In this document: piece after piece, positions 8,481 to 22,988 of the stretch
Position numbering within the stretch: the stretch's first letter is position 1
How the letters are laid out: every line of letters begins with the position of its first letter
Assembly: GCA_014302835.1 (NCBI GenBank)
Contig: CP060294.1
Coordinates: 682,001 to 746,000 of the forward strand
Origin: Pedobacter sp. PAMC26386
Lineage (GTDB): Bacteria > Bacteroidota > Bacteroidia > Sphingobacteriales > Sphingobacteriaceae
Length of the DNA: 64,000 bases
Reading direction: 5' to 3'
The notes under the pieces: model-generated
Databases searched by the model: none
What the model saw: the letters and a program-made list of their open reading frames with translations, nothing else
What the model was told of the DNA's origin: nothing
Position numbers and translations under genes: made by a program

Positions 8481-8500
8481 TGAGAAGGAATTCTAATAGA
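8481..8500 (+). repeat. Partial copy of the dispersed TTCTAATAGA repeat
   Basis: TGAGAAGGAA followed by TTCTAATAGA resembles the core of the G-rich repeats at 11344, 13429, 19494 and 21198, though its G-rich half is weak. It lies between the big inverted repeat and the 3' end of azoR, in the same orientation as the other copies. Confidence 0.4.
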
Positions 8501-8523
8501 TCATGGGTCAGTAAAAGAAGATT

Positions 8524-9126
8524 TTAATCAACCTCAATGCTATCAATTGCTTTTTCCATAGCATATTCTTTTACGCCCGGCACTTTTAGTCCTTCAGCAC
8601 GGAATACCGTCAGATCTGTCATGCCTAAAAATCCAAGAAAAGCCTTCAAATAAGGAGCAACAAAGTCGTTGGCTTTACCTGGACCTTCTGAATAAACACC
8701 CCCGGAAGACATTGCCACATAAAGTTTTTTTCCTGTTACTTTTCCAATGGGACCATTTTCACCATACCCAAAAGTTATTCCAGCTCTGGTAATATGATCA
8801 ATCCAGGCCTTTAACACTGTAGGGATAGTAAAGTTGATAAGTGGTGCACCAATCACAATGATATCCGCGGCCAATAACTGTTTAACCAGCTCATCAGAAA
8901 AGCGAATAGATTCTTTTTCTTCTTCAGTCAGCTGATCTCCGGGAATAAAGAATGTACGAAGCACAGCAGGGCTAAGATGCGGAATTTCGATATTGACCAG
9001 GTTTAATTCTTCCAACGTACTACCCGGGTACTTGTCCTGAATTTTTTCGACGATAGCGTGCCCCAGCTTAATGCTGTACGACTCTTTACCTTGTATGCTT
9101 GATTTTAAATGAAGGATGTGTTTCAT
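8524..9126 (-). CDS. azoR: FMN-dependent NADH:quinone reductase / azoreductase
   Basis: A 200-residue flavodoxin-fold protein of the AzoR family, which reduces quinones and azo dyes with NADH and protects against thiol and quinone stress. Family segments are the N-terminal MKHILHLKSSIQGKESYS (FMN phosphate loop), ADIIVIGAPLINFTIPTVLK (residues ~87-106, the conserved APMYNF-type loop), and WIDHITRAGITFGYGENGP. Length and termini fit. It is divergent from an intact HxlR-type regulator, the usual arrangement for quinone- or azo-responsive control. Confidence 0.92.
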   Translation of the reverse strand: MKHILHLKSSIQGKESYSIKLGHAIVEKIQDKYPGSTLEELNLVNIEIPHLSPAVLRTFFIPGDQLTEEEKESIRFSDELVKQLLAADIIVIGAPLINFTIPTVLKAWIDHITRAGITFGYGENGPIGKVTGKKLYVAMSSGGVYSEGPGKANDFVAPYLKAFLGFLGMTDLTVFRAEGLKVPGVKEYAMEKAIDSIEVD

Positions 9127-9304
9127 AATAAATTTGCTTATTTAATAATATTATCAATTTTAAGTTCCGAGATCGCCTGATTTCCTTTTGTGTTCATAAT
9201 GAAAGGTTTCGTTCGCTCGAATTATCTTAAGCAAAAGTATGGTAACCAAGTGATCAAAAGTTAGTACTTACCCAAAGGAAAGCGGTTACATTGAGGTAAG
9301 TGAT

Positions 9305-9312
9305 TATCTTTG
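9305..9312 (+). promoter_or_regulatory. TATCTTTG, Bacteroidetes -7 promoter element
   Basis: TATCTTTG is an exact match to the Bacteroidetes TANNTTTG -7 element and lies only 5 nt before the hxlR-type ATG at 9318. A transcript starting a few bases downstream would be leaderless or nearly so. No clear TTTG -33 box is seen at the ideal distance. Confidence 0.5.
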
Positions 9313-9317
9313 TCTCT

Positions 9318-9695
9318 ATGAAAAAGATTGAAAATGAGATTCTTCCAAGCAATGACGAATGCGCAGACTCGCTCAAAAACGTCCTTGATGCGCTGTATGT
9401 TCTTAATGGAAAATGGAAACTGGCTTTGATCCTTTGTCTGGTGCAATCATCAAAGCGTTTTAATGAGATTCAGCATGAAATGACTGGCATATCCTCTAAG
9501 GTATTAGCTAAAGAATTGAAAGATCTGGAATTGAATGACTTTATCATTCGTAATGTATATCCAACTACTCCTGTAAGTATTATTTATGAAGCGACCGCAT
9601 ATAGCAGAACGCTAAAAAAGGTGATAGGTGAACTAAGTGCCTGGGGGGAACAGCATAGGGAAAATATTAAGCAAAGTATGCGGAAACAAGCTTGA
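9318..9695 (+). CDS. HxlR-family transcriptional regulator
   Basis: 125 residues with a complete HxlR winged-helix domain. NVLDALYVLNGKWKLALILC is the first helix with the family GKW motif, RFNEIQHEMTGISSKVLAKE is helix 2 and the recognition helix, then LKDLELNDFIIRNVYPTTP and the wing IIYEATAY. ATG 9318 is preferred to GTG 9300 because TATCTTTG sits between them. It lacks the N-terminal redox Cys of YodB/QorR, but ECADSL near the start offers one Cys. Divergent from azoR, it is the likely regulator of that gene. Confidence 0.9.
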   Translation: MKKIENEILPSNDECADSLKNVLDALYVLNGKWKLALILCLVQSSKRFNEIQHEMTGISSKVLAKELKDLELNDFIIRNVYPTTPVSIIYEATAYSRTLKKVIGELSAWGEQHRENIKQSMRKQA

Positions 9696-9755
9696 GCACG
9701 AAAAGAAATACCTTTTCAGAGAAGATTCAAATTAAAAGAAATGTTTTTTGATTAT

Positions 9756-10092
9756 TTAGGTCTTAAAGCAAATATATCTGATGTCATAGATTTTTAATAT
9801 CATTTTTGTAATCAAATTACTATAAATAAATTGTTGACCTCCTTCTAGTAAACAGGTCCCAACGACTGCAATTTTTTCTTCTATTTGTTCGGAAATTTCA
9901 AGTTGTACATCGGTATTTAAAACAAAATCATCTGTATAAGATCGTTTATTTAAGATAACGGCTCTTGGATTTGTAAAAAACAAATTCATCATGAAGACAT
10001 TCGTTCATAAATGCGCCATCCTTAATAAGCGATGCATTATAAAAAGCATCTTGTCTCAGTTTTATAAGTTTTCTTTCGTTCTGTAAATTTTC
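9756..10092 (-). pseudogene. DUF4440/SnoaL-like (NTF2 fold) protein, frameshifted
   Basis: On the minus strand, ENLQNERKLIKLRQDAFYNA, then DGAFMNECLHDEFVF, reads in one frame. TNPRAVILNKRSYTDDFV and VAVVGTCLLE-like sequence continue in another. The junction is a T6 run (A6 on plus at 9975-9980) that needs one T fewer for EFVFTNPRA. These are hallmarks of the DUF4440 NTF2-like family (LRxAFYxA, FMxxxLxDEFVFTNPxG). The C-terminal strand pattern also breaks down after GGQQF. Immediately upstream is an A13 run preceded by GTG; in the present length it puts a TGA before the frame, so even the start is unclear. Confidence 0.75.
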
Positions 10093-10117
10093 TTTTTTTT
10101 TTTTTCACAAAATTACC

Positions 10118-10253
10118 TTACTTGTTTAAGTTCGCATAGTAAAAATGGAACATGAAATTTTTATCCTGTAAAAAATGGGAAGGTGTACAATTCATGAAAT
10201 TTTTAAACTCTTTAATAAAATAATTTTGGTCAAAATATCCTTTTTCAAGCACA
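10118..10253 (-). pseudogene. AraC-family C-terminal fragment
   Basis: The minus strand reads LEKGYFDQNYFIKEFKNFMN, then CTPSHFLQDKNFM, ending with TAA at 10118. This is the second helix-turn-helix end of an AraC regulator (GYFDQ, FIREFK, TPSQF). Nothing AraC-like precedes it: the sequence runs straight into the G-rich element at 10254-10268. About 45 codons remain of a gene normally near 280. The DUF4440 remnant follows on the same strand. Confidence 0.75.
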
Positions 10254-10268
10254 GTGGGGAGGGGTGAG
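10254..10268 (+). repeat. G-rich element at the truncation point of an AraC fragment
   Basis: GTGGGGAGGGGTGAG resembles the G-rich half of the dispersed repeat (GGGGGAGAGGGG) and has the same orientation. The AraC fragment to its left is cut exactly here. The TTCTAATAGA half is not present, so membership is tentative. Confidence 0.35.
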
Positions 10269-10465
10269 TGTTTAACTTAATAATGAATTCTTCCATGAAG
10301 AAGATAATAATGCTGAGTAAGTTAAATTCAATAGATTTATTGTTCCCTTCATTACTTGGAATACTAGTTTGTCTTGTATGGAGGTAATGAACTTTCTTTA
10401 AGGTAACTTAGGTGTTACAATATATATAGTCAAGACGCGTTTAATGTGTACTTGAAACATGGGCT

Positions 10466-11323
10466 ATGATTAGAATAAAAGTGATTACCTTTTTAGGTTT
10501 GCTAGTTGCTTTGGAAGCATGCACAAAAAATTCTCCTGTCGAGGAACAAGATAATACATCGGTATTACCTGGCGGACCGGCAGAAAATAAAACAGATTGG
10601 TGGAAACCAAAAGCAGGTATTTCCTTTGATTGGAATTTAGAAGTAGCTAATCAAAGTGATGTTTATACCACAGATGTGGTTGATGTGGATGCATTTGAAA
10701 CCACAAAGGAGATGGTTACTGCATTGCATGCCAAAGGAAAAAAAGTGATTGCATATGTTTCTGTTGGAACGCTTGAAAATACCCGTACAGATGGGAATTT
10801 GCTTCCGGTTGAGGTTATTGGGAATATTTATCCTGAGTGGCCGGAGGAGAAATGGCTGGACATCCATCAGCTAGATAAAATGAAACCTTGGCTGATCAAC
10901 AGGTTTACCATGATACAGAAAAAGGGATTCGATGCAATTGAACCAGATAATATTGATGGCTATTCTGCTACTAATACAGGTTTTTCAATCAGTTTAGATG
11001 ATACTAAGAAATTTTGTGATTATATAATTACACTCTCTCACCAGATGGGGCTTGGCATTGGTCAGAAAAATGTTGGCGAACTAGCCATTGATTACAGTTC
11101 GAAATTTGACTGGGCGCTAACTGAAGATGCTTTCAATCAAGGATGGCAGGATAATATGAAACCCTATATCATACAAAATAAGCCTGTTTTTGCTGTTGAA
11201 TATACGGATCAAACTGACCAACAGTTCTTTAGTTCAGTCATCTGTCCAAAAGCGAAAGCGATGAAATATAGTGCTATATTAAAGAAGAGACATATTGATA
11301 AATGGGTTGTTTTTTGTAATTAA
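10466..11323 (+). CDS. GH114-type endo-alpha-1,4-polygalactosaminidase-like lipoprotein
   Basis: 285 residues with a lipoprotein signal (VALEAC, lipidated Cys at residue 19) followed by a TIM-barrel of the GH114 family. Visible family segments are WWKPKAGISFDWNL (the usual W-Q-W-Q-L equivalent), VVDVDAFETTKEMVTALHAK, KKVIAYVSVGT (the strand with YxSxG), WLDIHQ, GFDAIEPDNIDGY (conserved acidic residues on barrel strands) and ALTEDAF. Characterised members cut alpha-1,4-linked galactosamine polymers in exopolysaccharides. Exported to a membrane surface, it may attack fungal or bacterial matrix sugars; the substrate is inferred from the family. Confidence 0.85.
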   Translation: MIRIKVITFLGLLVALEACTKNSPVEEQDNTSVLPGGPAENKTDWWKPKAGISFDWNLEVANQSDVYTTDVVDVDAFETTKEMVTALHAKGKKVIAYVSVGTLENTRTDGNLLPVEVIGNIYPEWPEEKWLDIHQLDKMKPWLINRFTMIQKKGFDAIEPDNIDGYSATNTGFSISLDDTKKFCDYIITLSHQMGLGIGQKNVGELAIDYSSKFDWALTEDAFNQGWQDNMKPYIIQNKPVFAVEYTDQTDQQFFSSVICPKAKAMKYSAILKKRHIDKWVVFCN

Positions 11324-11343
11324 ACTAGACTCTTTGCTTTCCT

Positions 11344-11408
11344 GGGGGAAGTGGGGTTCTAATAGAAGACTTTGGAGATTTTCGCAGTTTTAAAGCAGAT
11401 TTTGGATG
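11344..11408 (+). repeat. Dispersed G-rich repeat, copy 1
   Basis: Starts GGGGGAAGTGGGG, continues TTCTAATAGAAGACTTTGGA and ends TTTTAAAGCAGATTTTGGAT. It aligns along about 65-70 bases with the copies at 13429-13500 and 21198-21270 despite substitutions. It lies 20 nt after the GH114 stop. Confidence 0.65.
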
Positions 11409-11480
11409 TCCACTAACCTGTTTTATAGAATAAATATTTCTATAGTCCTGCCGCCATAAAACCTTATCAATAACGCTTTT

Positions 11481-11707: not shown

Positions 11708-11717
11708 TTTTCTAATA

Positions 11718-12484
11718 TTATGATTCTAATACTTTGTAACTTGCCTTCGGATTAACTAAACCAAAAGCAATTTTTGGGAAAAAGCGGCTGACCACATAGA
11801 GTGCTTTTGTATCGCCTACACGGATGATATACTGATCCTTCCTGAGAGCTGAAATAAGGACTTCTACCAGTTCTTCTGAACTAAGTTTTTTGTCATTCCT
11901 TCCGGCTGTCATTTCTGTAGCAACAACGGGGGGAGTAGTTCAAATATTTTGAGATCACTGTTTAAAATTTGCAGGTGCTTGCGTAATGCTTCTGTGTAAA
12001 AGCGTAAGGCCACTTTAGATGCAGAATAGGTTGCTTCGAGTAACGAAGGGACATAGCTCAGTATTGACGTTGTGTTGATAATGGCACTTTCTTTTCTTGC
12101 TTTCAGCATATCCAGAAAAATGTTGTTAAGACGAATTACCCCAAGGTAGTTGACATTCATTTCGTACGCCGCATCTTCAAAATGCTGGTCGCTTGTTATG
12201 CCAAGGTTGATCCCGCTGGTTAACACACCCGCATTATTGTATAAAATATCTATCCCACCTAAGTCTTTTACCTGGTTGAAAAGTTTCAGTGCATCATCCT
12301 TATCTGACACATCGCTTTGAATAGCAGTCAGTCCCGGATACAGTTTCTTTGCTGCGTCTAATTTAACCTGATTTCTGCCAGTGATGATTACATTAGCTCC
12401 ATTGTCTAAAAATTGCTTTGCTGCTTCCAGCCCGATCCCTGATGCACCACCTGTGATCAATACCGTTTTTCCTTTTAATTGCAT
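11718..12484 (-). pseudogene. Short-chain dehydrogenase/reductase, frameshifted near the C-terminus
   Basis: The first 190 residues are a normal classical SDR: TGGASGIGLEAAK (cofactor loop TGxxxGIG), NNAG at the NAG motif, catalytic Ser in NTTSILS and YSASKVALR with the Tyr-x-x-x-Lys pair. At the C6 run (plus-strand G6, 11928-11933) the frame shifts. The remaining 64 residues (ATEMTAGRNDKK, then SSEELVEVLISALRKDQY) continue in the next frame to 11718. One more C would restore a ~254-residue enzyme resembling DltE-type SDRs. The TetR operator at 12564-12585 lies upstream. Confidence 0.85.
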
Positions 12485-12563
12485 GATTGAAAATTTATTT
12501 TGTAATATTTATCGGTTTGTGTTAGTAAGAGGGCTCTGTAGCCTGAGGTACTTTATTTTAATT

Positions 12564-12585
12564 AAATATACTATTTAGTATATTT
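12564..12585. promoter_or_regulatory. TetR-type operator upstream of the SDR gene
   Basis: Perfect palindrome: AAATATACTA, centre TT, TAGTATATTT. The same arms (AAATATACT/AGTATATTT) recur at 13215-13236 before the tetR gene, so this is probably the binding site of that TetR protein in the SDR/dehydrogenase promoter. Confidence 0.75.
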
Positions 12586-12601
12586 TTAATTCGAAAAAAT
12601 G

Positions 12602-13192
12602 CTATGGTGTATAGCTGTTTAATTCAGCTTTCAAGTTTTTAATCAGCCCATGCATGGGTTTTACCGAGTTTATGGTCCTACACATTATAAGGCCCCCCTC
12701 AACAGCAGCTACCGCTTTGAAAGCAAAAACGACTGGATCTAGCCGGTCAGAAAATTCACCATTTTTAATACCTTGGCTTAAAATGCTGACAAACAATTCC
12801 TGTCCCTGTCTAATAATGCCCGCTACCTTCTCTTTGATGTCAGGGAAGTTATCATCTGATTCCACGGCAATATTAAATACAGGACAGCCTCCGCAAAGGT
12901 AAGTGTTTAAGGGATCCTTATAAAAATCAAGAAAAGCGAACACTTTTGCCTTTGCTTTTTTTTCTTTACTAATGATTGCCGTTATTTTGTCGCCGTTATT
13001 TTGTAACATAAAATCAACAACTTGTAAAGCTAGATCTTCCTTGTTTTCAAAATGGCCATAAATACTACCCTTAGTAAGCTTTGCGGCTGCAAGCACGTCG
13101 TCTATATTAGCGCCGGATATTCCTTTTTGATTAAAAATTGGGGCTGCTGTTTCCAGTATAAACTGTTTTGTTCTTTCCGCTTTGGTTAACAT
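12602..13192 (-). CDS. TetR/AcrR-family transcriptional repressor
   Basis: 196 residues. The N-terminal TetR helix-turn-helix is clear: RTKQFILETAAPIFNQKGI, then IDDVLAAAKLTKGSIYGHF with the ENKEDL turn. The C-terminal ligand domain contains CGGCPVFNIAVESDD, typical of TetR proteins next to oxidoreductases that respond to electrophiles or aldehydes; its Cys pair could sense reactive compounds (inference). Matching palindromes lie before this gene and before the downstream SDR gene, pointing to autoregulation plus control of the SDR operon. The target genes are both broken. Confidence 0.9.
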   Translation of the reverse strand: MLTKAERTKQFILETAAPIFNQKGISGANIDDVLAAAKLTKGSIYGHFENKEDLALQVVDFMLQNNGDKITAIISKEKKAKAKVFAFLDFYKDPLNTYLCGGCPVFNIAVESDDNFPDIKEKVAGIIRQGQELFVSILSQGIKNGEFSDRLDPVVFAFKAVAAVEGGLIMCRTINSVKPMHGLIKNLKAELNSYTP

Positions 13193-13214
13193 ATCATCAA
13201 ATTTGATACTACAA

Positions 13215-13236
13215 AAATATACTTAAAAGTATATTT
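13215..13236. promoter_or_regulatory. TetR-type operator in the tetR promoter
   Basis: Palindrome AAATATACTT, centre AA, AAGTATATTT, 22 nt upstream of the tetR start codon and sharing its core with the site at 12564-12585. Consistent with autorepression. Confidence 0.75.
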
Positions 13237-13428: not shown

Positions 13429-13500
13429 GGGGGGAGAGGGGGATAATAGAACACTTAGAGGGTGTTTTTGCCATTTTATGACAGATTCCGGATGAATAGT
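13429..13500 (+). repeat. Dispersed G-rich repeat, copy 2
   Basis: G6AGAGGGGG is followed by ATAATAGAACACTTAGAGGG and ends GACAGATTCCGGATGAATAGT in outline. It is the closest relative of copy 4 (21198-21270), sharing TAATAGAACACTTAGAGG and GGTGAATAGT-type ends. It abuts the 3' end of the CPBP gene. Confidence 0.75.
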
Positions 13501-13504: not shown

Positions 13505-14383
13505 CTAGGAAGATATACCTGCCAACTCTTTACGCCTTGACCAGAAATAAATGGCGAGAAGAAAGCTGATGATGGGTAACACTAAACCAAACTCTCCTGT
13601 AAAATACTTAGTATTTTTATTTTCAATAGTAATGGGATTAAAAACAGCCTGAATAAATAAATTATGACTGGCATGCAGCATTACACCGGTCCATAGGCTG
13701 TTTGATTTTAAACGGAACCATGTAAAGATAAAGCTTACACTTATTATCCCTAAAGTGAAAGTGATAAGTGAATACCAGCTGGGGGCGCCGGCATTATAAT
13801 TTCCGAAAATTAATAAGGGGTAATGCCATATTGCCCAAATCAATCCCATTATCAATGATGTTTTGGTATAACTGTTTGTGCTTGTAGCGATTTCAGGTAA
13901 TAAAAATCCCCGCCACCCGATTTCCTCGCCTAAGGCAGTTGCGATACTTGGTAGCAGACCTATACTCCCCTCTAGAATACAAAATAAAATAATAAAGAGA
14001 CCACTGGGAATGTTGTTCCTACCTAAATCTTCTTGCATCTTTGCCAGGAAAGTTTGATTATAAAAGCCCCCGCCACCGAAACTCCACACTATAGTATAGG
14101 CTGCCAACGCATATAATAAGGGGATCAGATAAGACCACAATATGTATTTGGATTTGCCCCACTGCCATGCCAAATCAGAAATATTTCTGCCTAATATTTT
14201 ACAAGTGATATAGGCTGCTAGTGCTGGACACCACATAATTCCATACCCGTAGACCCGGTTGCCAAAACTTCCTGTTTTTACACCAGCATGTATAGTAAGT
14301 ACCCATACAACGGAACTTAAAAGTAGTATGAAAAATAAAAAAGTGAATATTGCTTTGCGGCTTGAGGTTTGTACATTTTCCAT
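13505..14383 (-). CDS. CPBP-family intramembrane metalloprotease
   Basis: A 292-residue polytopic membrane protein of the CAAX protease / Rce1-like (CPBP) family. Catalytic signatures are GEEIGWRGFLLP (Glu153, Glu154, Arg158), WAIWHYPL (His187) and LHASHNLF (His240, Asn241), all present in transmembrane context. Eight or so hydrophobic segments are visible. Bacterial members cleave membrane-associated substrates or serve in bacteriocin immunity; no substrate can be read. It is divergent from the sensor kinase gene, so a link to that two-component system is possible. Confidence 0.9.
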   Translation of the reverse strand: MENVQTSSRKAIFTFLFFILLLSSVVWVLTIHAGVKTGSFGNRVYGYGIMWCPALAAYITCKILGRNISDLAWQWGKSKYILWSYLIPLLYALAAYTIVWSFGGGGFYNQTFLAKMQEDLGRNNIPSGLFIILFCILEGSIGLLPSIATALGEEIGWRGFLLPEIATSTNSYTKTSLIMGLIWAIWHYPLLIFGNYNAGAPSWYSLITFTLGIISVSFIFTWFRLKSNSLWTGVMLHASHNLFIQAVFNPITIENKNTKYFTGEFGLVLPIISFLLAIYFWSRRKELAGISS

Positions 14384-14557
14384 ATTTATAATGATCAGAT
14401 TATATATTAGTTAAGGATTCATAATAATGATAGTCACCATGGATACCGTGACAAATGTATGCTGACTTTATGTAAAAGATAGTTATGTTAGGTTAAATAG
14501 CGTTAAATCGGATGTAATAAGAGTTGCTTGCCTGAAAAAAAAGCGGACATTTGGTAG

Positions 14558-15997
14558 ATGAACCGGATGCCGGAAAAATATGTTTATCCTTTAGTTGTTT
14601 TGTCTATGCTCATCTGCGTTTTGCTTCAGTTTGCTTGGCTTAACCAGCTGTTCAAAGAGGAAAAGCGACGGACGATTGATGATATTGGAAATACTATTAA
14701 TGCAGTATCCAAAAATAATATCTATGTCACATTAGAGACGAAATATAAGGGTAATGCAGCGTTAAATAGATTTTTTCTTTCTCCTGAATGGCTTGGGATC
14801 TCGCAGGGATTCGAGGGTGCCAAAGATGACAGGCTATACAAATCATTTGATATAAATCTACAACCTGACTCGACCGTACTGGATCTGCGTTTAGTATTTT
14901 TAAAAGATCCTCCGGTACATCGCCTAGCCCCTAAATACGGGATGGGATATTCTCTTCAACAGATGAAGACAATGGACAGTTTATCCCTAATCAGCTTAAA
15001 ACGTTCAGTTATTAAAGAATTGAATAAGCAGGGAATCCATTCCGGTTATTTTTTCTTAGTCCATTCTTATGGTAGGGATGATTTTCATTCAACTTCAGCG
15101 ATAACGTCATCAGATTTTATAAGCAGAAGATACACCTATAACCTTATGCACCTCCATACTGTTCAGCTTGTTGTAGATTCAGTTAAGAAGGTAGTATGGT
15201 TTAAAATGCGCTATTTTTTATTGTCCTCTATTTTGATGGTTGTTTTAACAGGAATTGCATTTTACTTCATATTTAAGTTGATGATTAGTCGCCGCTTATA
15301 TGCCGATGCCCGGATTGCTTTTACCAGCAACATGACCCATGAAATCAAGACTCCAATTGCTACAGTCGCGTTGGCACTGGAATCTATTAGTAAATATGAG
15401 CTTACAAAAGACCCTGCAAAATTGCAGCGCTATCTAAATATGGGGAGACAGGAATTACAACGACTTACACTTATGGTAGAGAAGGTATTAAGTTTAAGTA
15501 TGGAGGATGGTAAAATTATACTTAGCCCGGTTTTTTATGATGTTCAGTCGGGACTGTCAGATGTTATCCGCTCCATGGAATTGCCACTATTAAATGCAGG
15601 TGCCGTTTGCAAGCTGATTGTATCTTCTGAGCCCTGTTTTATTGAAGGAGATGCAATGCACCTCACAACCGTGTTTTATAATCTGATAGAAAATGCGATT
15701 AAACATGCGATTAACCCACTGGAATTGCTGATCACTTGTAAGTGTGACCGAGAATGGGTAACGATTAGTTTCAAAGACAATGGCCCGGGGATTCCAGATA
15801 TGTACAAGGAAAAGATTTTTGACCGGTTTTTTAGAGTTCCGCAACCGGAAAATGTTCACCAGGTAAAGGGTTCGGGCCTGGGTTTAAATTATGTTTTGAG
15901 CGTAATTCAAAGTCATAGTGGCACGATCTCCGTAGACAGTGATTATGGCGTAGGAAGTACATTTACAATTAAACTCGCCGCAAGTAATGAATTCTAA
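14558..15997 (+). CDS. Membrane sensor histidine kinase
   Basis: 479 residues: TM1 about residues 10-28, an extracytoplasmic sensor of ~190 residues without a recognised domain, and TM2 about 218-240. A kinase core follows directly, without a HAMP domain. H-box SNMTHEIKTPIATV gives phospho-accepting His261. The N box is NLIENAIKHA, G1 is DNGPGIPD, F is FDRFFRVP and G2 is KGSGLGLNYV. The gene overlaps the response regulator by 11 nt, a strong sign of a cognate pair. The kinase type (His-kinase A with short linker) is typical of Bacteroidetes OmpR-type systems. Confidence 0.93.
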   Translation: MNRMPEKYVYPLVVLSMLICVLLQFAWLNQLFKEEKRRTIDDIGNTINAVSKNNIYVTLETKYKGNAALNRFFLSPEWLGISQGFEGAKDDRLYKSFDINLQPDSTVLDLRLVFLKDPPVHRLAPKYGMGYSLQQMKTMDSLSLISLKRSVIKELNKQGIHSGYFFLVHSYGRDDFHSTSAITSSDFISRRYTYNLMHLHTVQLVVDSVKKVVWFKMRYFLLSSILMVVLTGIAFYFIFKLMISRRLYADARIAFTSNMTHEIKTPIATVALALESISKYELTKDPAKLQRYLNMGRQELQRLTLMVEKVLSLSMEDGKIILSPVFYDVQSGLSDVIRSMELPLLNAGAVCKLIVSSEPCFIEGDAMHLTTVFYNLIENAIKHAINPLELLITCKCDREWVTISFKDNGPGIPDMYKEKIFDRFFRVPQPENVHQVKGSGLGLNYVLSVIQSHSGTISVDSDYGVGSTFTIKLAASNEF

Positions 15998-16679
15998 AAT
16001 TTTATATGTCGAAGACGAGCCATTCATAGCACAAATCGTTAGTGAAGGCCTTATCAGCAGTGGTTATATGGTGAAAACTGTCACTGATGGAAATTTTGTG
16101 ATGAAGGAGTTTAAGCAATTTAGACCTGATATCTGTATTATGGATATTATGTTACCTTCTGTGGATGGTTATTCATTAACGACAGAAATACGTAAAATTG
16201 ATGCTCATATTCCGATCATATTTGTGAGTGCCAAATCAATGACAGAAGATGTGGTTAGAGGTTTTAAAACCGGGGGAAACGATTATCTTAAAAAGCCATT
16301 CAGCATGGATGAACTGTTAGTGCGGATTGAATCCTTATTATCCAGATTTAATAACTTATCAGGGATTGGCTCCAAAGATGAAAACGGAATGTATGAATTC
16401 GCGAATTGCCAATTTGATGCGGCACATCAACAATTGATTACCCCTCTCTCTACTTATCTTTTATCTTATAAGGAAGCCGCTCTGCTTGAGTTATTGCTTG
16501 ATCGAAAAAATGAGGTACTGGAGCGGCAGGAAGTACTGCTTAAAATCTGGAAGGAAGACACCTATTATAACACCAGAAGTTTGGATGTTTTTATGGCACA
16601 TTTGAGAAAGCTTCTCAGGGATGATCCGGCGGTGCAGATCCTGAGCCTGCGTGGGGTTGGGTACAAATTGTTTTGTTAA
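15987..16679 (+). CDS. OmpR-family response regulator
   Basis: 230 residues. The receiver domain (1-~118) has the acidic pair in YVEDEP, phospho-acceptor Asp53 in CIMDIMLPSVDG, Ser/Thr in FVSAKS and Lys in YLKKPF. The C-terminal winged helix (~135-230) has LLSYKEAALLELLLDRKNEV, TRSLDVFMAHLRKLL and the wing LRGVGYKLF. It overlaps the sensor kinase gene upstream. Targets are unknown. Confidence 0.95.
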   Translation: MNSKILYVEDEPFIAQIVSEGLISSGYMVKTVTDGNFVMKEFKQFRPDICIMDIMLPSVDGYSLTTEIRKIDAHIPIIFVSAKSMTEDVVRGFKTGGNDYLKKPFSMDELLVRIESLLSRFNNLSGIGSKDENGMYEFANCQFDAAHQQLITPLSTYLLSYKEAALLELLLDRKNEVLERQEVLLKIWKEDTYYNTRSLDVFMAHLRKLLRDDPAVQILSLRGVGYKLFC

Positions 16680-16847
16680 CTGCATGAATGCTTTTCAAGG
16701 AAAATTGATATTGCCATCTGCTGAGTTGGTTATCAATCCAGCTCTTCGTTGTACCATCTGTGGCCTTTTGAATATCAGTTAAAGCCTTGGGAAAGAATTA
16801 GTTTTATAAACCTGCATTTATGATTTAAGATTTTTTGATATAGTAAT
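16680..16847. other. Intergenic region after the response regulator
   Basis: No gene, repeat or convincing terminator seen between the response-regulator stop and the antitoxin remnant. Confidence 0.4.
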
Positions 16848-17032
16848 CTAGCCCTGTAAAATCTCTGAATTAGTCTTGTATTCAATAATTCTTTCATTGA
16901 CAATATCCTGGTGTTCTAAAAGAATATCTATATTCTCGAACCAGATCAATCGTTGAGTTCCAATTTTTCAGGTGATGATAATTGTTTCAACGTATCTATT
17001 AATTGTTTGAATGATAATTCTACGAAGATCAT
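16848..17032 (-). pseudogene. Antitoxin-like (addiction-module) protein remnant, frameshifted
   Basis: The minus strand from ATG 17032 reads VELSFKQLIDTLKQLSSPEK, then LELND to TGA at 16946. With a 1-nt correction it continues IWFENIDILLEHQDIVNERI, then IEYKTNSEILQG to TAG at 16848. The order (F-x-x-L-I-x-x-x-K-Q-L-S-P-x-E-K, then EHQxIVxERxxxYxxNPE) is that of short Bacteroidetes antitoxin / addiction-module proteins of RelE-type systems. No toxin gene is present next to it. Family assignment is from remembered sequences. Confidence 0.6.
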
Positions 17033-17143
17033 GATATCTATTAAATTAATGAAGAATACAAGGTTAATTTGTAAGAGGTTCTTTTCGGTTTGGAACCTAA
17101 CTAATCCGTTCAATACTTAAATAAATACAAAATAATTTTTTAT

Positions 17144-17161
17144 TAAATGAATAATCATTTA
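17144..17161. promoter_or_regulatory. Palindromic operator candidate before tetR (17183)
   Basis: TAAATGA, spacer ATAA, TCATTTA: 7-bp perfect arms ending 21 nt before the TetR-family start codon. Position and form suit an autoregulatory TetR operator. Confidence 0.6.
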
Positions 17162-17182
17162 GTTTTGAGCGATTATTAGATT

Positions 17183-17794
17183 ATGCGGATTAGGGATATT
17201 AATAAAGAGCAATTAGTAAAGGAAAAAGCTATAGAAACTATCGTAAAATACGGCTTGGAAGGCTTTACTATTAATAAACTTGCGAAAGCCTGCGGTGTTT
17301 CGGTAGGAACACCTTATGTTTATTACAAAGATAAGGACGATCTTATTTTAAAGATCGTATTGGAAGAGGGTGCAAGAATGGAAGATGCGATAAATGAGGA
17401 TTTCGATCCGGAGGCTTCATTAGAAGAAGGTTTGCGGATCCAGTGGCGCAACCGGTTCGACTATATGATGAAAAATCCTTTGCTGGGACAGTTTTTCGAT
17501 CAGATCAGCAGCTCAACCTACCATCAGCAATTCCTTGAAATGTTCACAAGCAATAGAGGCTCATTCTTAAGTAAGTTCAAAGAAAATATGGGGAGTTTCA
17601 TTAGTAATGTTGTAATGCGGGGCGAAATGGAGGACTTGCCTATTGATGTTTACTGGTCGATTGCATTTGGCCCATTATATACTTTAATGCGCTTTCATCA
17701 ACAAGGGCGCAGTATAACAGGTGCTTCGTTTCAAATCCGCGAAGAGCTTATATGGGCCACGTTTAAACTTGTACTGAAGGCTTTGAAAAAATAG
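17183..17794 (+). CDS. TetR-family transcriptional regulator
   Basis: 203 residues. The N-terminal helix-turn-helix reads AIETIVKYGLEGFTINKLAK, then GVSVGTPYVYYKDKDDLI. The C-terminal ligand domain is of the TetR_C type found in multidrug regulators and has no Cys-rich motif. A palindrome lies just upstream. It is followed after 35 nt by a carbohydrate-esterase gene on the same strand; whether it controls that gene is inference from spacing. Confidence 0.88.
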   Translation: MRIRDINKEQLVKEKAIETIVKYGLEGFTINKLAKACGVSVGTPYVYYKDKDDLILKIVLEEGARMEDAINEDFDPEASLEEGLRIQWRNRFDYMMKNPLLGQFFDQISSSTYHQQFLEMFTSNRGSFLSKFKENMGSFISNVVMRGEMEDLPIDVYWSIAFGPLYTLMRFHQQGRSITGASFQIREELIWATFKLVLKALKK

Positions 17795-17829
17795 CCACTC
17801 TAATAATAGGTAGTATAAATATAAAAAAT

Positions 17830-18675
17830 ATGATAAATTCTTTTTTGATGTTAGGCCAATCAAATATGGCAGGGCGGGGATATTTGAGTGATGTTAAGCA
17901 GATCTATGATGAAAAGATCAAAATGCTGGTGAATGGCCGCTGGCAAACGATGACAGAACCAATTAATTTTGACAGGCCTACATCCGGTATAGGACTTGCA
18001 GCATCATTCGCGGGTGCCTGGCGATTAAAAAATGATCAGGAAGAAATCGGTTTGATACCGTGTGCTGACGGGGGCACGAGCCTGGATGATTGGGCTGTTG
18101 GGGGTGTACTCTTTGAAAACGCCGTTTTCCAGGCAAAGCTTGCCCTAAGGTCCAGTAAGTTGAGCGGGATCTTATGGCATCAAGGCGAAAATGATAGTTT
18201 TGGTGGATTTTCCACTCTTTATTACGATAAACTGAGTATTATCGTTGATGCATTTCGCCTTGAGCTTGAAGTACAAGATATTCCTTTTATTGCAGGCGGC
18301 CTTGGCGATTTTTTAAGTGGTGGCAGGTACGGAAAATATTTTACTGAATATAACCAGGTTAATTATGCTCTTCAGAAATTCGCTGAAACTAAGCCGAACT
18401 GCTATTTTGTAACGGCAAATGGATTAACGGCTAACGAGGATGGGCTTCATTTTGATGCGGTATCGCAGCGTAGGTTTGGAATCCGGTATTTCGAATCATT
18501 AGTCGAAAAGAAAAATATTTTGGTACCACTTGCTGGCGAGGATGAGTTAATCGAGATCATACAGGAAAGGCCTTTAACTAAAAAAGAACAGGGTACATTG
18601 TTAGAAGTTGATTTTGCCCGCGGTAAAATGTCCCTAGGTGATCTGGAAGAAAAACTGAGCCTGCTGAACGACTAA
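17830..18675 (+). CDS. SASA-family carbohydrate esterase (acetyl-xylan esterase/sialate O-acetylesterase-like)
   Basis: 281 residues, an SGNH-type hydrolase. FLMLGQSNMAGRG has the nucleophile Ser in GQSNM, LWHQGENDS is the WHQGE block, and EDGLHFD carries the catalytic Asp-x-x-His. There is no signal peptide, so unlike many CE6 enzymes it looks cytoplasmic. After about residue 230 comes a ~50-residue C-terminal extension (LTKKEQGTLLEVDFARGKMS) that I do not recognise. Family members remove acetyl groups from sugars such as xylan or sialic acid. It lies 35 nt after the TetR gene. Confidence 0.85.
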   Translation: MINSFLMLGQSNMAGRGYLSDVKQIYDEKIKMLVNGRWQTMTEPINFDRPTSGIGLAASFAGAWRLKNDQEEIGLIPCADGGTSLDDWAVGGVLFENAVFQAKLALRSSKLSGILWHQGENDSFGGFSTLYYDKLSIIVDAFRLELEVQDIPFIAGGLGDFLSGGRYGKYFTEYNQVNYALQKFAETKPNCYFVTANGLTANEDGLHFDAVSQRRFGIRYFESLVEKKNILVPLAGEDELIEIIQERPLTKKEQGTLLEVDFARGKMSLGDLEEKLSLLND

Positions 18676-18780
18676 TTAAATTGATATGTTCCCTGACCAG
18701 TTGAATGAGATCAATAAGCATAATGATAAATCAAAAACGCAAGATAGTTAGTCATTATTTTTAAGTCATAATCTTATGTT

Positions 18781-19269
18781 TTAAAATCGGCATAATTTCT
18801 CGATCAGAGTTTTCTGAGATGGGTAAACATTGCTCAACGAACTTTTAGTTGCCATCTCGAACTCTGAAAAATCGAAACCAGGTGCGACTGCGCAGCTGAC
18901 CAACGCAAAGTCCCGTTTTGATGAAACCTCAGCAGCAAACCAGCAATTTGGTTCGATGGAAACTTGTAGATTACCAGTTTCTGAATCACTAAGTTCTATA
19001 CACTTGTAGCCCCCGTCTGCATCTAAAACGTGGATATTTATTGGCTGACCAATATGGAAGTACCAAAGCTCATCAGACTTTAAGCGATGAAAACCGGAGA
19101 AATCACTACCTTCAAGCAAGTAATAAATTGATGTGCAAGCGCGTCTTAATTCACTTTCGTTATCACGATTAACTTCGGCATGAGATCTGAAAATTTCTCT
19201 ATAATAACCACCTTCGGGATGTGATTGAAGATCTAGGCGATCTATCCAGTAGCTAGCTTTGTTTTTCAT
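18781..19269 (-). CDS. Cupin-type DUF985 family protein
   Basis: A 162-residue single cupin of the DUF985 (Cupin_5) family. The start ASYWIDRLDLQSHPEGGYYR carries the family HPEGGYYRE motif. SIYYLLEGSDFSGFHRLKSD provides the first cupin motif with the metal/sugar-site His. WYFHIGQPINIHVL and SCAVAPGFDFSEFE are the C-terminal strands. Related folds include epimerase-like cupins; no function is established for the family. It is divergent from the truncated AraC gene and intact. Confidence 0.9.
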   Translation of the reverse strand: MKNKASYWIDRLDLQSHPEGGYYREIFRSHAEVNRDNESELRRACTSIYYLLEGSDFSGFHRLKSDELWYFHIGQPINIHVLDADGGYKCIELSDSETGNLQVSIEPNCWFAAEVSSKRDFALVSCAVAPGFDFSEFEMATKSSLSNVYPSQKTLIEKLCRF

Positions 19270-19440
19270 ATTATTTTTTTTTTATTTGATGACTATCTTT
19301 CTTGAAAACCTAAGTATTGACAACTATAAAATAACGCATTTTTATCTGGATAAATTATATGAAGAATATGCTCTTTTTTGAGACAAGAATCGAACACGCG
19401 CTGACTAGTAAGACATTCCTCTAAAAAGGACATTGATCCA

Positions 19441-20106
19441 TTGTCAGAAAATTTTCTTGCTCCGCTCGTCAGTTGGGTTAGGTTTTTCTGTTTGGGGGGA
19501 GGGGATTCTAATAGACATGCTGATCTGATTTGTAATTACCAATTGGGCAAGAAGATTCAGCAGTATGGTTTCTTTTCATATGCAGTAAACGAGGCATTGT
19601 TTCTTTCAGAAAAGGAAAAGAGCGTGGTCACGACACTGTTTGAAAGTATTGCAATGGAACCGGAGCACAATATTGATAAATTCAGTCAGGATGTTCTCGT
19701 TTCTCAGATAGAGCTATTACTGAATTATAGCAACCGTTTCTATAACCGGCAGTTCATCACCCGCAAAGTGTTGTATGTTGACTTAATCGTCCAGTTGGAT
19801 GCATATCTGGCAATGCACCTTGAAAATGAGTTGAAAGGACTGCCAACGGTACAGCAGGTATCAGATCATCTTAGGGTATCTCAAAGATATTTGACCGATA
19901 TGCTCAAATCACTGACAGGCCATGGTACTCAGCAATATATTCACTACCGGTTAATTGAAAAGGCAAAGTCTCTGCTGGTTATTACTGACCTAAGTGTAGC
20001 AGAGATCGGGTACCAATTGGGGTTCGAACATCCTCAATCATTCAATAAATTATTCAAAATGAAAACAAAAACAACACCTTCAGAATTTAGGGATTCATTC
20101 AATTGA
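19441..20106 (+). pseudogene. AraC-family regulator, N-terminus lost at a repeat junction
   Basis: From about 19516 the frame encodes a normal AraC-type protein lacking its first ~100 residues: ADLICNYQLGKKIQQYGFFS, YAVNEALFLSEKEK, then the DNA-binding end (VSDHLRVSQRYLTDMLKSLT, and LSVAEIGYQLGFEHPQSFNK). Upstream the frame continues open to a TTG at 19441, but those 25 residues come from the G-rich repeat copy 3 and unrelated DNA. The cupin ligand domain is missing. A DNA-binding-only protein might still be made, but no ribosome-binding context supports it. Confidence 0.7.
19494..19516 (+). repeat. Dispersed G-rich repeat, copy 3 (short)
   Basis: GGGGGGAGGGG followed by ATTCTAATAGACATG. Homology to the other copies ends after TAATAGA; immediately to the right begins AraC coding sequence that lacks its 5' part. 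Confidence 0.6.
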
Positions 20107-20330
20107 AAGATATTCTTCAGAGAGGCGCCAGGTTGTTACTTTATAGGTAATGCATCGATAAGGGCTACCGCTTTTTCGATTCCATCTCAATATCTAGCCC
20201 GGCTTCGTTTATCAGGACATCGGATCTAAGGGGGCAAATCCCTTATGCCAATCTCTTTTTGATAAATACATACTTGTTGCACTAAAAAAAGAGAAGATAT
20301 TATGAATTGTTTCCTGGATTGGATTGACTT

Positions 20331-21128
20331 TTATCCTGTCTCTGTTATAGACTTTGGCAGCATCAATAAAAATGGTAAAGCCATGGTATAATCCAAATCA
20401 GGATATTCTAATTCCAATACCCTTATATTGCTATAGTAAGTTTCATGTTGTGTATAGTAGTATTTTTCAGACTGGACAAACCATGCTTTGTTTTCCAGTT
20501 TCTGAGCAAGGAACCATTTCTCAAACATGCGTGCACTACGACCATTACCATCATTCCATGGATGTATCTTTACAAATACAAGATGTATCATGCTGGCAAA
20601 AAAGAAGGTCTCCAGCGGTGTCAGTTCAGTGTTAATTGGCGTTTCCATATCAGCATACAATTTATCCATCTCAGAAGCTACTCCAATAGGAGAGGCCGCC
20701 ACATACTCAATGCGTTCAACTTTTGTCGTAACAAACATATTCTGATTTCTGAACTTGCCTATCCAATTTGTAGATACGATATACCTTGCTAAAATGGTAT
20801 GCATCTCTGCAAATGTTTCTTTTCCTATTCTATTTTCTGAAGCAAATTGATAAGCAAGATACAGGTCATCTATTTTACGCGTATAATCAGGTTTAAATTC
20901 AATATGAAATCGCTTATGCTTAATATAAGAATCTAATTCTATGGTTTCTCCTTCAATTTTGCTTGAATATACGGAGGCTACAGAAGTATAAAAGCTAAAC
21001 TCATCTGTGGAAATGAGAGCATCTTCCAATTCGTTAAATGCAGTTAACAATGCCTCATTTGAAACCACACTTTTGTATTGCCCAAGCAAATCAGTAGGTA
21101 TGATTTGTAAGTCCTCTATTGTTAACAT
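20331..21128 (-). CDS. Fic-domain protein (AMPylase family) with N-terminal inhibitory helix
   Basis: 265 residues. The Fic core motif is HPWNDGNGR (His189 to Arg197), with the usual Phe replaced by Trp and the acidic Asp193 kept. An inhibitory (S/T)xxxE(G/N) helix is present N-terminal to the core: SSKIEG, with Ser55, Glu59 and Gly60. This is the class II, self-inhibited arrangement. Such proteins transfer AMP from ATP to a Thr, Ser or Tyr of a target, with Glu59 blocking ATP until relieved. No winged-helix C-terminus and no partner antitoxin gene are seen. The target is unknown. Confidence 0.92.
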   Translation of the reverse strand: MLTIEDLQIIPTDLLGQYKSVVSNEALLTAFNELEDALISTDEFSFYTSVASVYSSKIEGETIELDSYIKHKRFHIEFKPDYTRKIDDLYLAYQFASENRIGKETFAEMHTILARYIVSTNWIGKFRNQNMFVTTKVERIEYVAASPIGVASEMDKLYADMETPINTELTPLETFFFASMIHLVFVKIHPWNDGNGRSARMFEKWFLAQKLENKAWFVQSEKYYYTQHETYYSNIRVLELEYPDLDYTMALPFLLMLPKSITETG

Positions 21129-21153
21129 TGTTCCTAGAGTTAGTTGTAAACAA

Positions 21154-21185
21154 AAAAAGCTTTAAATCGAAATTTAAAGCTTTTT
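21154..21185. terminator. Perfect 14-bp hairpin with CGAA loop upstream of fic
   Basis: AAAAAGCTTTAAAT, loop CGAA, ATTTAAAGCTTTTT. The symmetrical A/T tails could terminate transcription in either direction. It lies 26 nt before the Fic start codon, so it may shield fic from upstream transcription or be part of its leader. Confidence 0.65.
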
Positions 21186-21197
21186 AGTGAATTCAGC

Positions 21198-21270
21198 GGG
21201 GGAGAGGGGATTTTAATAGAACACTTAGAGGGGGGGGGGGACGTTTTAAGGCAGATTTTGGGTGAATAGT
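21198..21270 (+). repeat. Dispersed G-rich repeat, copy 4 (with G11 run)
   Basis: GGGGGAGAGGGG, then ATTTTAATAGAACACTTAGA, an uninterrupted G11 run (21230-21240), then TTTTAAGGCAGATTTTGGGT and GAATAGT. It aligns over its whole length with copy 2 at 13429-13500. The G11 run replaces GGGTGTTTTT of copy 2 and may have expanded by slippage. Confidence 0.75.
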
Positions 21271-21775
21271 GTGACACTTCTTCTTAATCTTTTTTGTAGT
21301 TGGCGTTTGTAGCCTTTTAACTCTTTAGATGAAGTATATTCGCTGAATTAGTAATCATTCGAAAGTTTTGTATATCCTTAGTCAGTTCGACTCTGGCAAA
21401 GGGAGAGAATAGCCTTTTTGTTTTCATCCGTGCACGGATATATAAATAATTCGTTGTCATCGAGATGATTCACTTACTTGTTGTTAACTAATAAGAGTTT
21501 AACGTTTTTTTGTACAAAAAAACACCCTTCATTGAAACCATAAAAAACAATTAAAGACAATGAAATGATTTTATTTATCTTTAGTGCAAGGTTAGGCTGA
21601 AGTGCACTGATTTCCTCCCACTTCTGCAAGACCAAAACCGTTAACAATACTGTTTTATGACAGACAATAAAGGAAAAAATATAATAAAGGATGTCGTCGA
21701 AACGGGTTCTGGAATTTCGGGGATTAACATCGTGTGTATATTTATACAGTGCCAGAGGTTTTTTTACACTCTGCC
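21271..21775. other. Intergenic region left of the ankyrin cassette
   Basis: About 500 bases without a gene I can support. A 113-codon minus-strand frame (21474-21815) is open but has no recognisable protein character. The right end contains GTTGTGCG, discussed under the cassette. Confidence 0.4.
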
Positions 21776-22540
21776 GTTGTGCGTCAGCTATGACTGAAAC
21801 CTCCGAAAATAACACAGAGAAAAAATGAAAGCATTATTTACTGCAATCCGAGAAAAAGACACGAACAAAATAACAGAACTAATTACAAAAAAACCTGACC
21901 TCGTAAATAGTGTTGCTAAACAACCTCCAAAAAAGGATGATGGACAATCTCCGTTACAAATTGCATTTAAGGCAAGGAATTTTTGGGCAGCAAAGTACTT
22001 GCTTGAAAAAGGAGCAGATGTAAATTTCATAGACGCTACATCAGTTAATGAATGGAAAATGCCAGTACTACACGATGCGGTAATGGCAACAGTATCTTTG
22101 GCGAGATTTGAATTTGCTGTCGACCCGTGGAATGAAGAAAAAAAACATCTTTATGAATTAAAGGGAGTAAAAGAACACTTCGAAAAAACATTCTCTTTGC
22201 TGAAAATTATGGTTGAAAAAGGAGCAGATGTAAATTCTGTTGACAGTTATGGAAATTCTGTATTAATGCGTGCTTGTGCTGATGTTGAAAATCGTTGGAT
22301 GGCTAAAGATAGGTCTATACCCAAAGAAACTACTTGGGACTTAAAACAAATTTTCGATTTGTTAATTTCTTCGGGTGCTGACGTTTATAGAACGACACCA
22401 ACAAGAAAAGCAATTACGGAAATGAATAAAAGACTTTTGAAACAACTAAAAATTGAAATTTAGCCGAACGCACAACAAGGTATATTGTCAAAAGCGGAGC
22501 TGAAAGGACTTTTTGTGCAAAACCCAACAACTTTACTAGC
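21776..22540 (+). mobile_element. Integron-cassette-like unit carrying the ankyrin gene
   Basis: GTTGTGCG at 21776-21783, 41 nt before the ankyrin start, is the exact complement of CGCACAAC at 22469-22476, 5 nt after its stop. Core-site complementarity around a single promoterless ORF, plus a structured-looking tail after the stop (ACAAGGTATATTG region), is what an integron gene cassette looks like. A matching GTTGTGC downstream of the tail was not found and no integrase is in the window, so this is a candidate stranded cassette. The right boundary is approximate. Confidence 0.35.
21825..22463 (+). CDS. Ankyrin-repeat protein
   Basis: 212 residues, no signal peptide, made of about four ankyrin repeats. 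Visible repeat cores are ALFTAIREKDTNKITELITK, SPLQIAFKARNFWAAKYLLE, KGADVNFID, LLKIMVEKGADVNSVDSYGN with VLMRACADV, and IFDLLISSGADVYR. Ankyrin repeats bind other proteins; no catalytic domain is attached. The gene is alone, tightly framed by the complementary GTTGTGCG / CGCACAAC motifs, and lies in the accessory side of the window 430 nt from the tRNA-Ser gene. Confidence 0.85.
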   Translation: MKALFTAIREKDTNKITELITKKPDLVNSVAKQPPKKDDGQSPLQIAFKARNFWAAKYLLEKGADVNFIDATSVNEWKMPVLHDAVMATVSLARFEFAVDPWNEEKKHLYELKGVKEHFEKTFSLLKIMVEKGADVNSVDSYGNSVLMRACADVENRWMAKDRSIPKETTWDLKQIFDLLISSGADVYRTTPTRKAITEMNKRLLKQLKIEI

Positions 22541-22800
22541 TACTTTTTTGAAATTCTTACAAATACTTATTTTTAGGTAGTAACCCAAGTAGTTGGCAAT
22601 ATGGGGGAAGAGGGATTCGAACACTAGATGAATTAATGATTTATAAAGATGCTGAAATTCTTGTTTTACTCGTTCCGCTCGTTGGCTCGATTATCGGTAA
22701 GTTTATACCCGTGGATTTCCGCTAATAGGGATTAGCTCGCTGCGCTCGCTGATCCCTTGAGGGGGAGGCTTCAAACAAACTGCGCTCGCTTCGCTCGTAC
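22541..22800. other. Intergenic region between cassette and tRNA-Ser
   Basis: Holds the tRNA-like repeat copy at 22603-22622 and several CGCTCG-rich short repeats (for example TGCGCTCGCT at about 22740 and GCGCTCGCTTCGCTCG at about 22783). No gene is seen. Confidence 0.45.
22603..22622 (+). repeat. Partial duplicate of the tRNA-Ser 3' end (attachment-site-like)
   Basis: GGAAGAGGGATTCGAAC at 22606-22622 is identical over 17 bases to 22906-22922 inside the tRNA-Ser gene (T-arm and acceptor stem), exactly 300 nt away and in the same orientation. Preceding GGG extends the similarity to the other G-rich repeats. It looks like an attL/attR-type copy of a tRNA end. Confidence 0.7.
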
Positions 22801-22868
22801 GCATTTTTTTGGTTTAAAACCAGCCTTGCACTGAAGGAGTGCAGAACTGGCTTTAAACCAAAAAATGC
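22801..22868. repeat. Imperfect long inverted repeat next to the tRNA terminator
   Basis: Left arm GCATTTTTTTGGTTTAAAAC (with CAG) pairs with right arm CTGGCTTTAAACCAAAAAAT (with GC); an inner GCACT/AGTGC stem encloses the loop GAAGG. The A-T rich arms end beside the tRNA terminator hairpin. Confidence 0.6.
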
Positions 22869-22890
22869 TACTTATCTTCGATAAGCAGCA
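22864..22890 (-). terminator. Intrinsic terminator of tRNA-Ser
   Basis: On the minus strand, ATGCTGCTTAT, loop CGAAG, ATAAGTAGCAT is followed directly by a T-run, 9 nt after the CCA end of the tRNA. One mismatch in the stem. A classical intrinsic terminator. Confidence 0.8.
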
Positions 22891-22898
22891 TTTATGTT

Positions 22899-22988
22899 TG
22901 GCGGAGGAAGAGGGATTCGAACCCTCGGTACCGTTGCCAGTACGACAGTTTAGCAAACTGTTCCTTTCGGCCACTCAGGCATCCCTCC
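22899..22988 (-). tRNA. tRNA-Ser (anticodon GCT)
   Basis: Minus-strand gene of 90 nt. The acceptor GGAGGGA pairs with TTCCTCC (one G-U), the discriminator is G and CCA is encoded (22899-22901). The D-arm reads GCCTGAGTGGCCGAAAGG. The anticodon stem-loop ACAGT-TTGCTAA-ACTGT gives anticodon GCT, which reads AGC/AGU. A long variable arm typical of class II tRNA-Ser follows, then T-arm GAGGGTTCGAATCCCTC. The 3' end points towards the accessory region, the side where islands using a tRNA 3' end would accumulate. Confidence 0.95.

Follow-up and report, generated by a model that had tools for sequence, protein, structure and literature searches.

Probable attR scars of large serine recombinases stacked at the 3' end of a tRNA-Ser gene in Pedobacter sp. 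PAMC26386

Rows of small gene units bordered by repeats are known from integron cassette arrays, which carry a repeat at each unit border and grow at one end. Serine recombinases stack SCC (staphylococcal cassette chromosome) elements at the 3' end of a gene, which is another target than the one considered here, and in the integration-dependent immunity of mycobacteriophages the C-terminus of a phage gene changes on integration, the changed gene being a repressor and not a recombinase. In this work we describe a row of repeats on the 3' side of the tRNA-Ser(GCT) gene of Pedobacter sp. PAMC26386, in a stretch of 64,000 nt (the window) of its single-contig 4.80-Mb genome. This row is, very probably, a stack of attR scars from large serine recombinases (LSRs) that would have inserted serially at the 3' end of that gene. 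Unlike in integrons, there is no integron integrase beside the array (no PF00589 match in the window), the anchor is a tRNA gene, and the repeats would be att scars of coding origin.

The accretion of decayed elements is described in a review of mobilizable elements (PMC5704250), and att sites in tRNA genes have been treated in general (PMC12884075). As in cis-mobilizable elements (CIMEs) and in the tandem accretion of mobilizable elements (PMC5704250), decayed att-bearing units appear stacked at one gene end in the window, with att-like repeats at the unit borders and neither PF07508 nor PF00589 matches; however, table rows of that review give tyrosine integrases for tRNA targets, whereas the scars described here appear to be of the LSR type. 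In the archaeal 'suicidal' integrases of SSV1, pTN3 and pT26-2 (PMC8371274) the att site lies inside the integrase gene, which is split on integration, and the LSR bodies and tails of relatives suggest the same position here. Those enzymes are tyrosine recombinases, while the present one would be a bacterial serine recombinase (Resolvase and Recombinase domains) that loses its last codons only. According to the same review of archaeal tyrosine recombinases, recombinases that disrupt their own gene are found only in archaea. The LSRs of relatives are like the integrase of the Listeria phages LI/A118 (PMC3783163) in their domain set and in an outer half-site motif shifted by 5 bp, but the target is here a tRNA 3' end and attP would lie inside the 3' end of the recombinase gene. 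In literature searches of openly licensed PubMed Central papers, mostly of titles and the starts of abstracts, no report was recognised of LSRs at tRNA genes whose attP lies in the 3' end of the recombinase gene itself.

The tRNA-Ser(GCT) gene (22899..22988, minus strand) is the only tRNA gene that ARAGORN finds in the window, and the empty-site comparison given below identifies its 3' end as the insertion target. Three full repeats of about 75 bp each, all likely attR scars, are located at 21198..21270 (LSR tail type; the outer end of a 1,705-bp insertion relative to genome G018), 13429..13500 (reading ...RGIIEHLEGVFAIL and a stop) and 11344..11418 (full but diverged, found as a profile match). 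A half copy at 19494..19515 consists of the G-rich part and TTCTAATAGA, the right arm being lost. A junction of a second type, a displaced tRNA 3' end (GGGGGAAGAGGGATTCGAACACT...) with another arm, is found at 22603..22650 and is common to position 38688 of G023. All these copies lie on the plus strand and on the 3' side of the tRNA gene, as the first-pass annotation of this DNA had reported. That annotation took the repeats for degraded tRNA sequence, an idea ruled out for the main repeats by their consistent shared differences from the tRNA, a 5-bp TAATA insertion and a common right arm. The copy of the tRNA 3' end that it placed at 22603 is real, but it belongs to a different type, without TAATA and with another arm. 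One of its two minor copies, at 8481..8500 (plus strand), is plausible but weak as a decayed repeat, with 2 mismatches in the 15-base core, the level of background matches elsewhere; the other, a 'weaker' copy at 10254, is just a G-run and was rejected. A short way to the left of position 8481 there is a near-perfect 43-bp inverted repeat (8314-8400, 91% complementary, 1-nt loop).

Above background, the repeat is confined to this cluster. A 23-base consensus with up to 3 mismatches gives 2 matches in the genome, both in the window cluster, and its reversed control gives 0. The 15-base core with up to 2 mismatches gives 12, of which 4, including the weak copy at 8481, are in the cluster, all on the plus strand; since the reversed control gives 11, the 8 core matches outside the cluster are background. 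A DNA sequence profile built from 12 repeat copies, 3 of them from the window, recovers 11344, 13430 and 21198 at E-values (E) of 2e-15 to 1e-19 and 19494, weakly, at 0.036. The next match, outside the window at 2532273 (E 2.5e-4), was inspected and dropped as not site-like. The genome-wide search for the consensus that had been proposed at first pass thus reveals no other copies above background, so this is no scattered repeat.

Relatives carry the same repeat at the same place. An exact 15-mer occurs 8 times in 5 of the 145 genomes of the genus, always in the orientation of tRNA-Ser(GCT) and no more than 18 kb from it, on its 3' side. Four relatives have the repeat at this tRNA; for instance, the array of G023 contains six copies, 1.5-3.9 kb apart, that of G012 two full and two partial copies, and that of G022 one full copy, and no repeat was found in G018 or G017. 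Below E 1e-10, 15 sites of the genus match the profile; these arrays account for 13 of them, and G115 and G068 for one apiece.

The comparison with related genomes, which the first-pass annotation had also suggested, provides an empty site whose junction falls at copy 21198. In G018, the Fic gene and terminator that lie to the left of our copy 21198 stand directly against the tRNA (own 20325-21208 aligns to G018 36902-37786), and of the 50 bases left of the junction 45 match the tRNA flank of G018 versus 17 for our own present tRNA flank. Relative to G018, 1,705 bp (21198-22902) are inserted here between GC and GG, exactly at the tRNA 3' end, so that insertion at this end is seen directly. A relative of our present tRNA flank adjoins the repeat of G022, 4,847 bp from the tRNA of that genome (83% identity with gaps, 29/50 without), and a unit with a dehydrogenase gene is found beside the tRNA in G017 and about 10 kb away, inside the array, in G012. 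From these three comparisons, units appear to have been added at the tRNA end. The earlier proposal of serial integration at the 3' end of tRNA-Ser agrees with the single orientation of the copies and with the junctions of relatives, which coincide with them.

The half of the repeat that is not tRNA-like reads as a protein C-terminus, GGEGILIEHLEGIFGVLRQILGK and a stop in relatives, and our own copy 13429 still reads IIEHLEGVFAIL and a stop. At weaker profile matches in other Pedobacter species the right arm reads GG(E/D)xGSPLEHLEGIFxVLKxIYxK and a stop. In the codon and junction analysis, in which 3 of 66 junctions could not be anchored (G379_182101, G025b and our own 11344), 51 tails from outside the Pedobacter cryoconitis group show 7421, 4388 and 10498 differences at codon positions 1, 2 and 3, and stops occur in frame in 6/51 of them, compared to 48/51 and 27/51 in the other frames. 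The two sets of sites are connected in both directions, for the profile from P. cryoconitis copies finds sites in G076, G080, G110 and others, and the tail peptide of other species falls on repeats of G012, G022, G023, G115 and G154 (E 0.02-0.3). A profile of 20 tails has matches in 60 of 399 genomes of the family at E 0.01. Among the matches listed, all but two tails sit in open frames that do not exceed 113 codons, and nearly every tail is thus an orphan; these orphan tails are a direct observation.

Tail peptides were not recognised by NCBIfam or PHROGs, and a whole-database search with the tail region returned only itself. The G110 protein is filed under Pedobacter soli. Some matches of the tail search are chance matches in other proteins, such as FolE, and two viral contigs that match the tail pattern encode other proteins. 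The repeat has no direct match in a recorded plasmid, phage or viral contig. Two exact matches in Legionella are at the estimated chance level (about 4 in that collection).

The owner of the tail can be recognised in the two listed tails with long open frames, those of G110 and G446, which are C-terminal parts of LSRs, in frame through the junction into the tail. This continuity is observed directly. Over 200 residues, the G110 fragment shares 87.5% identity with a full LSR encoded in that genome, and the G446 fragment has 37% LSR identity over residues 293-504 (E 2e-38); in G423, LSR sequence reaches up to one codon before the tail. The Pfam match of the 248-aa G110 fragment is below threshold, its LSR nature being taken from the comparison with the full LSR. 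Resolvase and Recombinase domains pass the Pfam cut-offs in three LSRs at tRNA-Ser, where a zinc-ribbon match falls below its own. In a larger set of 39 tail sites (the tail-profile list down to E 2.9e-6, minus sites already examined with wider flanks; the right side is shorter than 3 kb in two and the left side shorter than 5 kb in three), LSR sequence extends on the left as far as the junction in 2, and is present on the right in 4. Among the full-length homologs, P0050, P0052 and P0060 (E 0.017, 4e-4 and 0.015; 121 sequences) are suggestive candidates for LSRs with a native tail. The LSR protein has no match among plasmids and phages at E 1e-20. Remnants of such genes are present in the P. 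cryoconitis arrays: G023 has one at 26150-26311 (56% over 54 residues) that reads into a displaced tRNA end at junction 26291, and G012 one with stops that reaches up to junction 33886. G011 has a similar one in the flank of tRNA-Ser(GCT). By their DNA similarity to the copies of relatives, the arms of the full copies in our own genome are related to the 3' ends of LSR genes.

Bodies of LSRs lie at the tRNA and their tails at a distance. In G140, a frameshifted LSR runs into the antisense strand of tRNA-Ser(TGA) (...CGERGIRTPGPVTVNSFQDCRIRP...), and the tail is 21.7 kb from that LSR, with a relaxase gene between them. G084 has an LSR at tRNA-Ser(GCT) and two distal tails, about 36 and 79 kb off, that share its orientation, and G110 has four tails 36-55 kb distal to an LSR at tRNA-Ser(TGA). 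Such frame fusion with the antisense tRNA is directly visible at 17 of the 30 LSR loci fetched (out of 65 listed PF07508 matches), which end inside an antisense tRNA (Met, Arg, His, Glu, Asn, Leu or Ser; L189-L218). Another, L198, runs through one and a further one, L216, is frameshifted before it. As the tRNAs concerned are many and different, the arrangement is wider than tRNA-Ser. Similarly, among the best 120 of 605 LSR homologs an antisense-tRNA 7-mer is found in the last 60 residues of 42 proteins and in the first or middle 60 residues of none, its most frequent source being tRNA-Ser(GCT), with 13. A tRNA-Ser gene lies within 10 kb on the predicted side of 13 of the 39 tail sites, always antisense, and on the other side of none, where two tRNA-Pro and one tRNA-Cys were found. 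Outside these 39, the tails of G076 and G080 are 2.0 and 1.6 kb from tRNA-Ser(TGA), that of G154 is 5.6 kb from tRNA-Ser(GCT), and three G110 sites are 36-55 kb from tRNA-Ser(TGA). ARAGORN found one tRNA-Pro on 26 short tail loci.

The geometry of the half-sites points to a serine integrase. Counted from the GG after the tRNA end, tRNA-Ser(GCT) and tRNA-Ser(TGA) have GGGATTC at offsets 9-15 and GAAC at 16-19. The P. cryoconitis repeat has GGGATTC in the same place and, because of TAATA, GAAC at 21-24. An AACA-type motif occurs at offset 21 in 51 of 66 junctions, from all species, being shifted, changed or cut in the others. For the Listeria phage integrase, the motif of the zinc domain covers positions 16-24 in attP and is moved by 5 bp towards the centre in attB, and the recombinase domain is assumed to have an unchanged binding position in the two sites (PMC3783163). 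With GG as the probable centre of the site, the 5-bp shift between the tail and tRNA half-sites would agree in size and position with this published attP/attB shift. The left half is conserved only as GC.

We infer from these data that attP lies inside the 3' end of the LSR gene and that GG is the crossover dinucleotide. Crossover at the tRNA end would fuse the LSR body to the antisense tRNA, integration would leave the last ~20 LSR codons at the far end of the element as an orphan tail, and with every new insertion an older scar would come to lie farther from the tRNA. The recombinase genes would then probably have been lost from the units of the window, which would move only with the help of another element.

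Several observations weigh against this scheme. Eleven of the 30 LSR loci have no overlap with a tRNA, and 26 of the 39 tail sites have no tRNA-Ser within 10 kb, for which longer elements would be a conjectural explanation. The tail of G078 (L124) is 5.0 kb from a tRNA-Asp, not a tRNA-Ser, with several genes between. No tRNA was present on the predicted side, in the fetched stretch, of the sites in G115, G068, G025, G026, G084 (3252842), G102, G002 (two sites), G108 and G024, and around those of G115 and G068 the fetched stretches contain no tRNA at all. No intact LSR was observed to end in exactly the P. cryoconitis tail, and our own genome, with a given completeness of 84.7%, has no PF07508 match at E 1e-3. 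The codon signal of the P. cryoconitis group is weak (333/227/359, n=12). Neither the tail peptide nor the tail protein profile has a match in our own genome, because its copies carry indels and stops, so these copies are linked to the tails by DNA similarity to the copies of relatives. The mirrored motif GAATCCC at -14 occurs in only 4 of 51 left flanks, and also where LSR and tRNA join in G084; its presence is not required in attR flanks. Finally, a first insertion leaves attL at the tRNA, and attL does not pair with attP in the model published for the Listeria integrase (PMC3783163), so stacking requires attB-like left halves or another route.

The first-pass annotation ascribed the row to tyrosine recombinases inserting in tandem at the 3' end of tRNA-Ser, which would make the arm ordinary sequence of element ends. 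We consider this quite improbable for the main repeat, whose arm continues LSRs wherever a long frame exists and is related to LSR gene 3' ends, and whose half-site shift fits serine integrases; moreover, the 6 PF00589 matches of our genome all fall outside the window. However, known elements of that kind use tRNA 3' ends, for instance NBU2 at tRNA-Ser (PMC5704250), and in G031 (L065) the gene of a 410-aa tyrosine recombinase is located about 0.4 kb from the same tRNA-Ser(GCT) gene. The second junction type, represented by our own 22603, G023 26291 and 38688, G012 35482 and G022 21028, keeps the true tRNA-like 3' end, as tyrosine recombinases leave it, and has another arm and no TAATA. At G023 26291 an LSR end and then tRNA sequence stand on the left, which suggests that an old LSR-tRNA joint was displaced, apparently through a cut made deeper within the tRNA. 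A likely, if conjectural, author of this type is a tyrosine recombinase similar to that of G031, and two recombinase classes would seem to use tRNA-Ser(GCT).

Two further explanations concern the units and the repeat itself. Instead of decayed islands, the units could be small passive cassettes that carry att sites and are mobilised in trans by the LSRs of other elements, forming an integron-like store anchored at the tRNA. Their small size, with one to few intact genes (Fic, toxin-antitoxin, nuclease, regulator plus oxidoreductase), the unit found beside the tRNA in G017 and about 10 kb inside the array in G012, and the single ATPase-type gene between tail and tRNA in G080 and G076 all favour such cassettes; the LSR remnants of G023 and G012 point instead to the decay of larger elements, and no excision or transfer of a unit was seen. 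We regard this possibility as less likely than not. A dispersed repeat of the ordinary kind, or an RNA or regulatory element in several copies, would also be short and intergenic, as this one is, but it is hardly conceivable given the lack of further copies above background, the single orientation, the coincidence of a junction with the empty site, the protein-coding pattern and the LSR continuity.

With the repeats read as LSR scars, the units between them can be described by their Pfam matches. The unit at 8524..11323 contains genes for a flavodoxin-fold enzyme (8524-9126, minus strand), an HxlR regulator (9300-9695, plus) and a GH114 protein (10466-11323, plus). Short-chain dehydrogenase and TetR regulator genes (11909..13192, minus) lie between repeats 11344 and 13429, and those of an Rce1-like protease, a two-component pair, a TetR regulator, a SASA esterase and a Cupin_5 protein (13505..19269) between 13429 and 19494; the Cupin_5 stretch is 90% identical to sequence immediately before the G023 repeat 21860. 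An AraC-type regulator frame (19441-20106) spans the half copy 19494, the first part of the gene having apparently been lost at the junction. The Fic gene (20331..21128, minus), which adjoins the tRNA in G018, is here 1.7 kb from it, and an ankyrin-repeat protein gene (21825..22463, plus) belongs to the unit inserted relative to G018. The unit genes are accessory, namely regulators with oxidoreductases, Fic, a ParE-type toxin-antitoxin pair, a YhcG nuclease and the ankyrin protein. Transfer genes are absent from the Pfam matches of the scanned unit genes, no model search having been aimed at them.

The present tRNA flank (22729..22898), whose relative adjoins the repeat at G022 17181, contains a hairpin. 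In L223, L224 and the left flanks of many tail sites, the hairpin next to the tRNA also encodes part of an LSR (KEKGLLFLEQP), so that a single stretch may be coding sequence and tRNA terminator in one. An ATPase gene of the AAA_14/DUF4143 type (Pfam on the G110 copy) follows the tail in L115, L116, L118 and L120 (G076, G080, G110 and G026), in two of these four genomes directly before tRNA-Ser(TGA). Two units of one G023 array (L055 3469-4302 and 8283-9092) carry copies, 88% identical, of a gene for a biotin/lipoyl-domain protein. In the window, Peptidase_S58 is split across two adjacent open frames at 6550-7497 (profile 26-185 and 189-306), which are likely one broken gene.

Taken more broadly, the data raise the tentative idea, to which we give somewhat less than even confidence, that Bacteroidota possess a large class of serine integrases that use the shared T-arm of tRNAs as attB and carry attP in their own last codons. 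Insertion would then rewrite the C-terminus of the enzyme from a native helix to antisense tRNA, which would mark the integrated state and perhaps act as a switch between the free and integrated forms; the tails would be a fossil record, and tRNA-Ser genes would hold integron-like stores without a resident recombinase. An orphan recombinase tail behind a G-rich half-site is a readable mark by which fossil insertions at the tRNA genes of Bacteroidota can be located and put in order, including those in genomes where the enzyme is gone. The arrangement would also extend to bacterial serine recombinases the gene-splitting behaviour of integrases that is called exclusively archaeal in the review cited above (PMC8371274). 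The swapped C-terminus may have an effect on the enzyme, and if it affects activity, it would constitute a natural direction switch for serine integrases.

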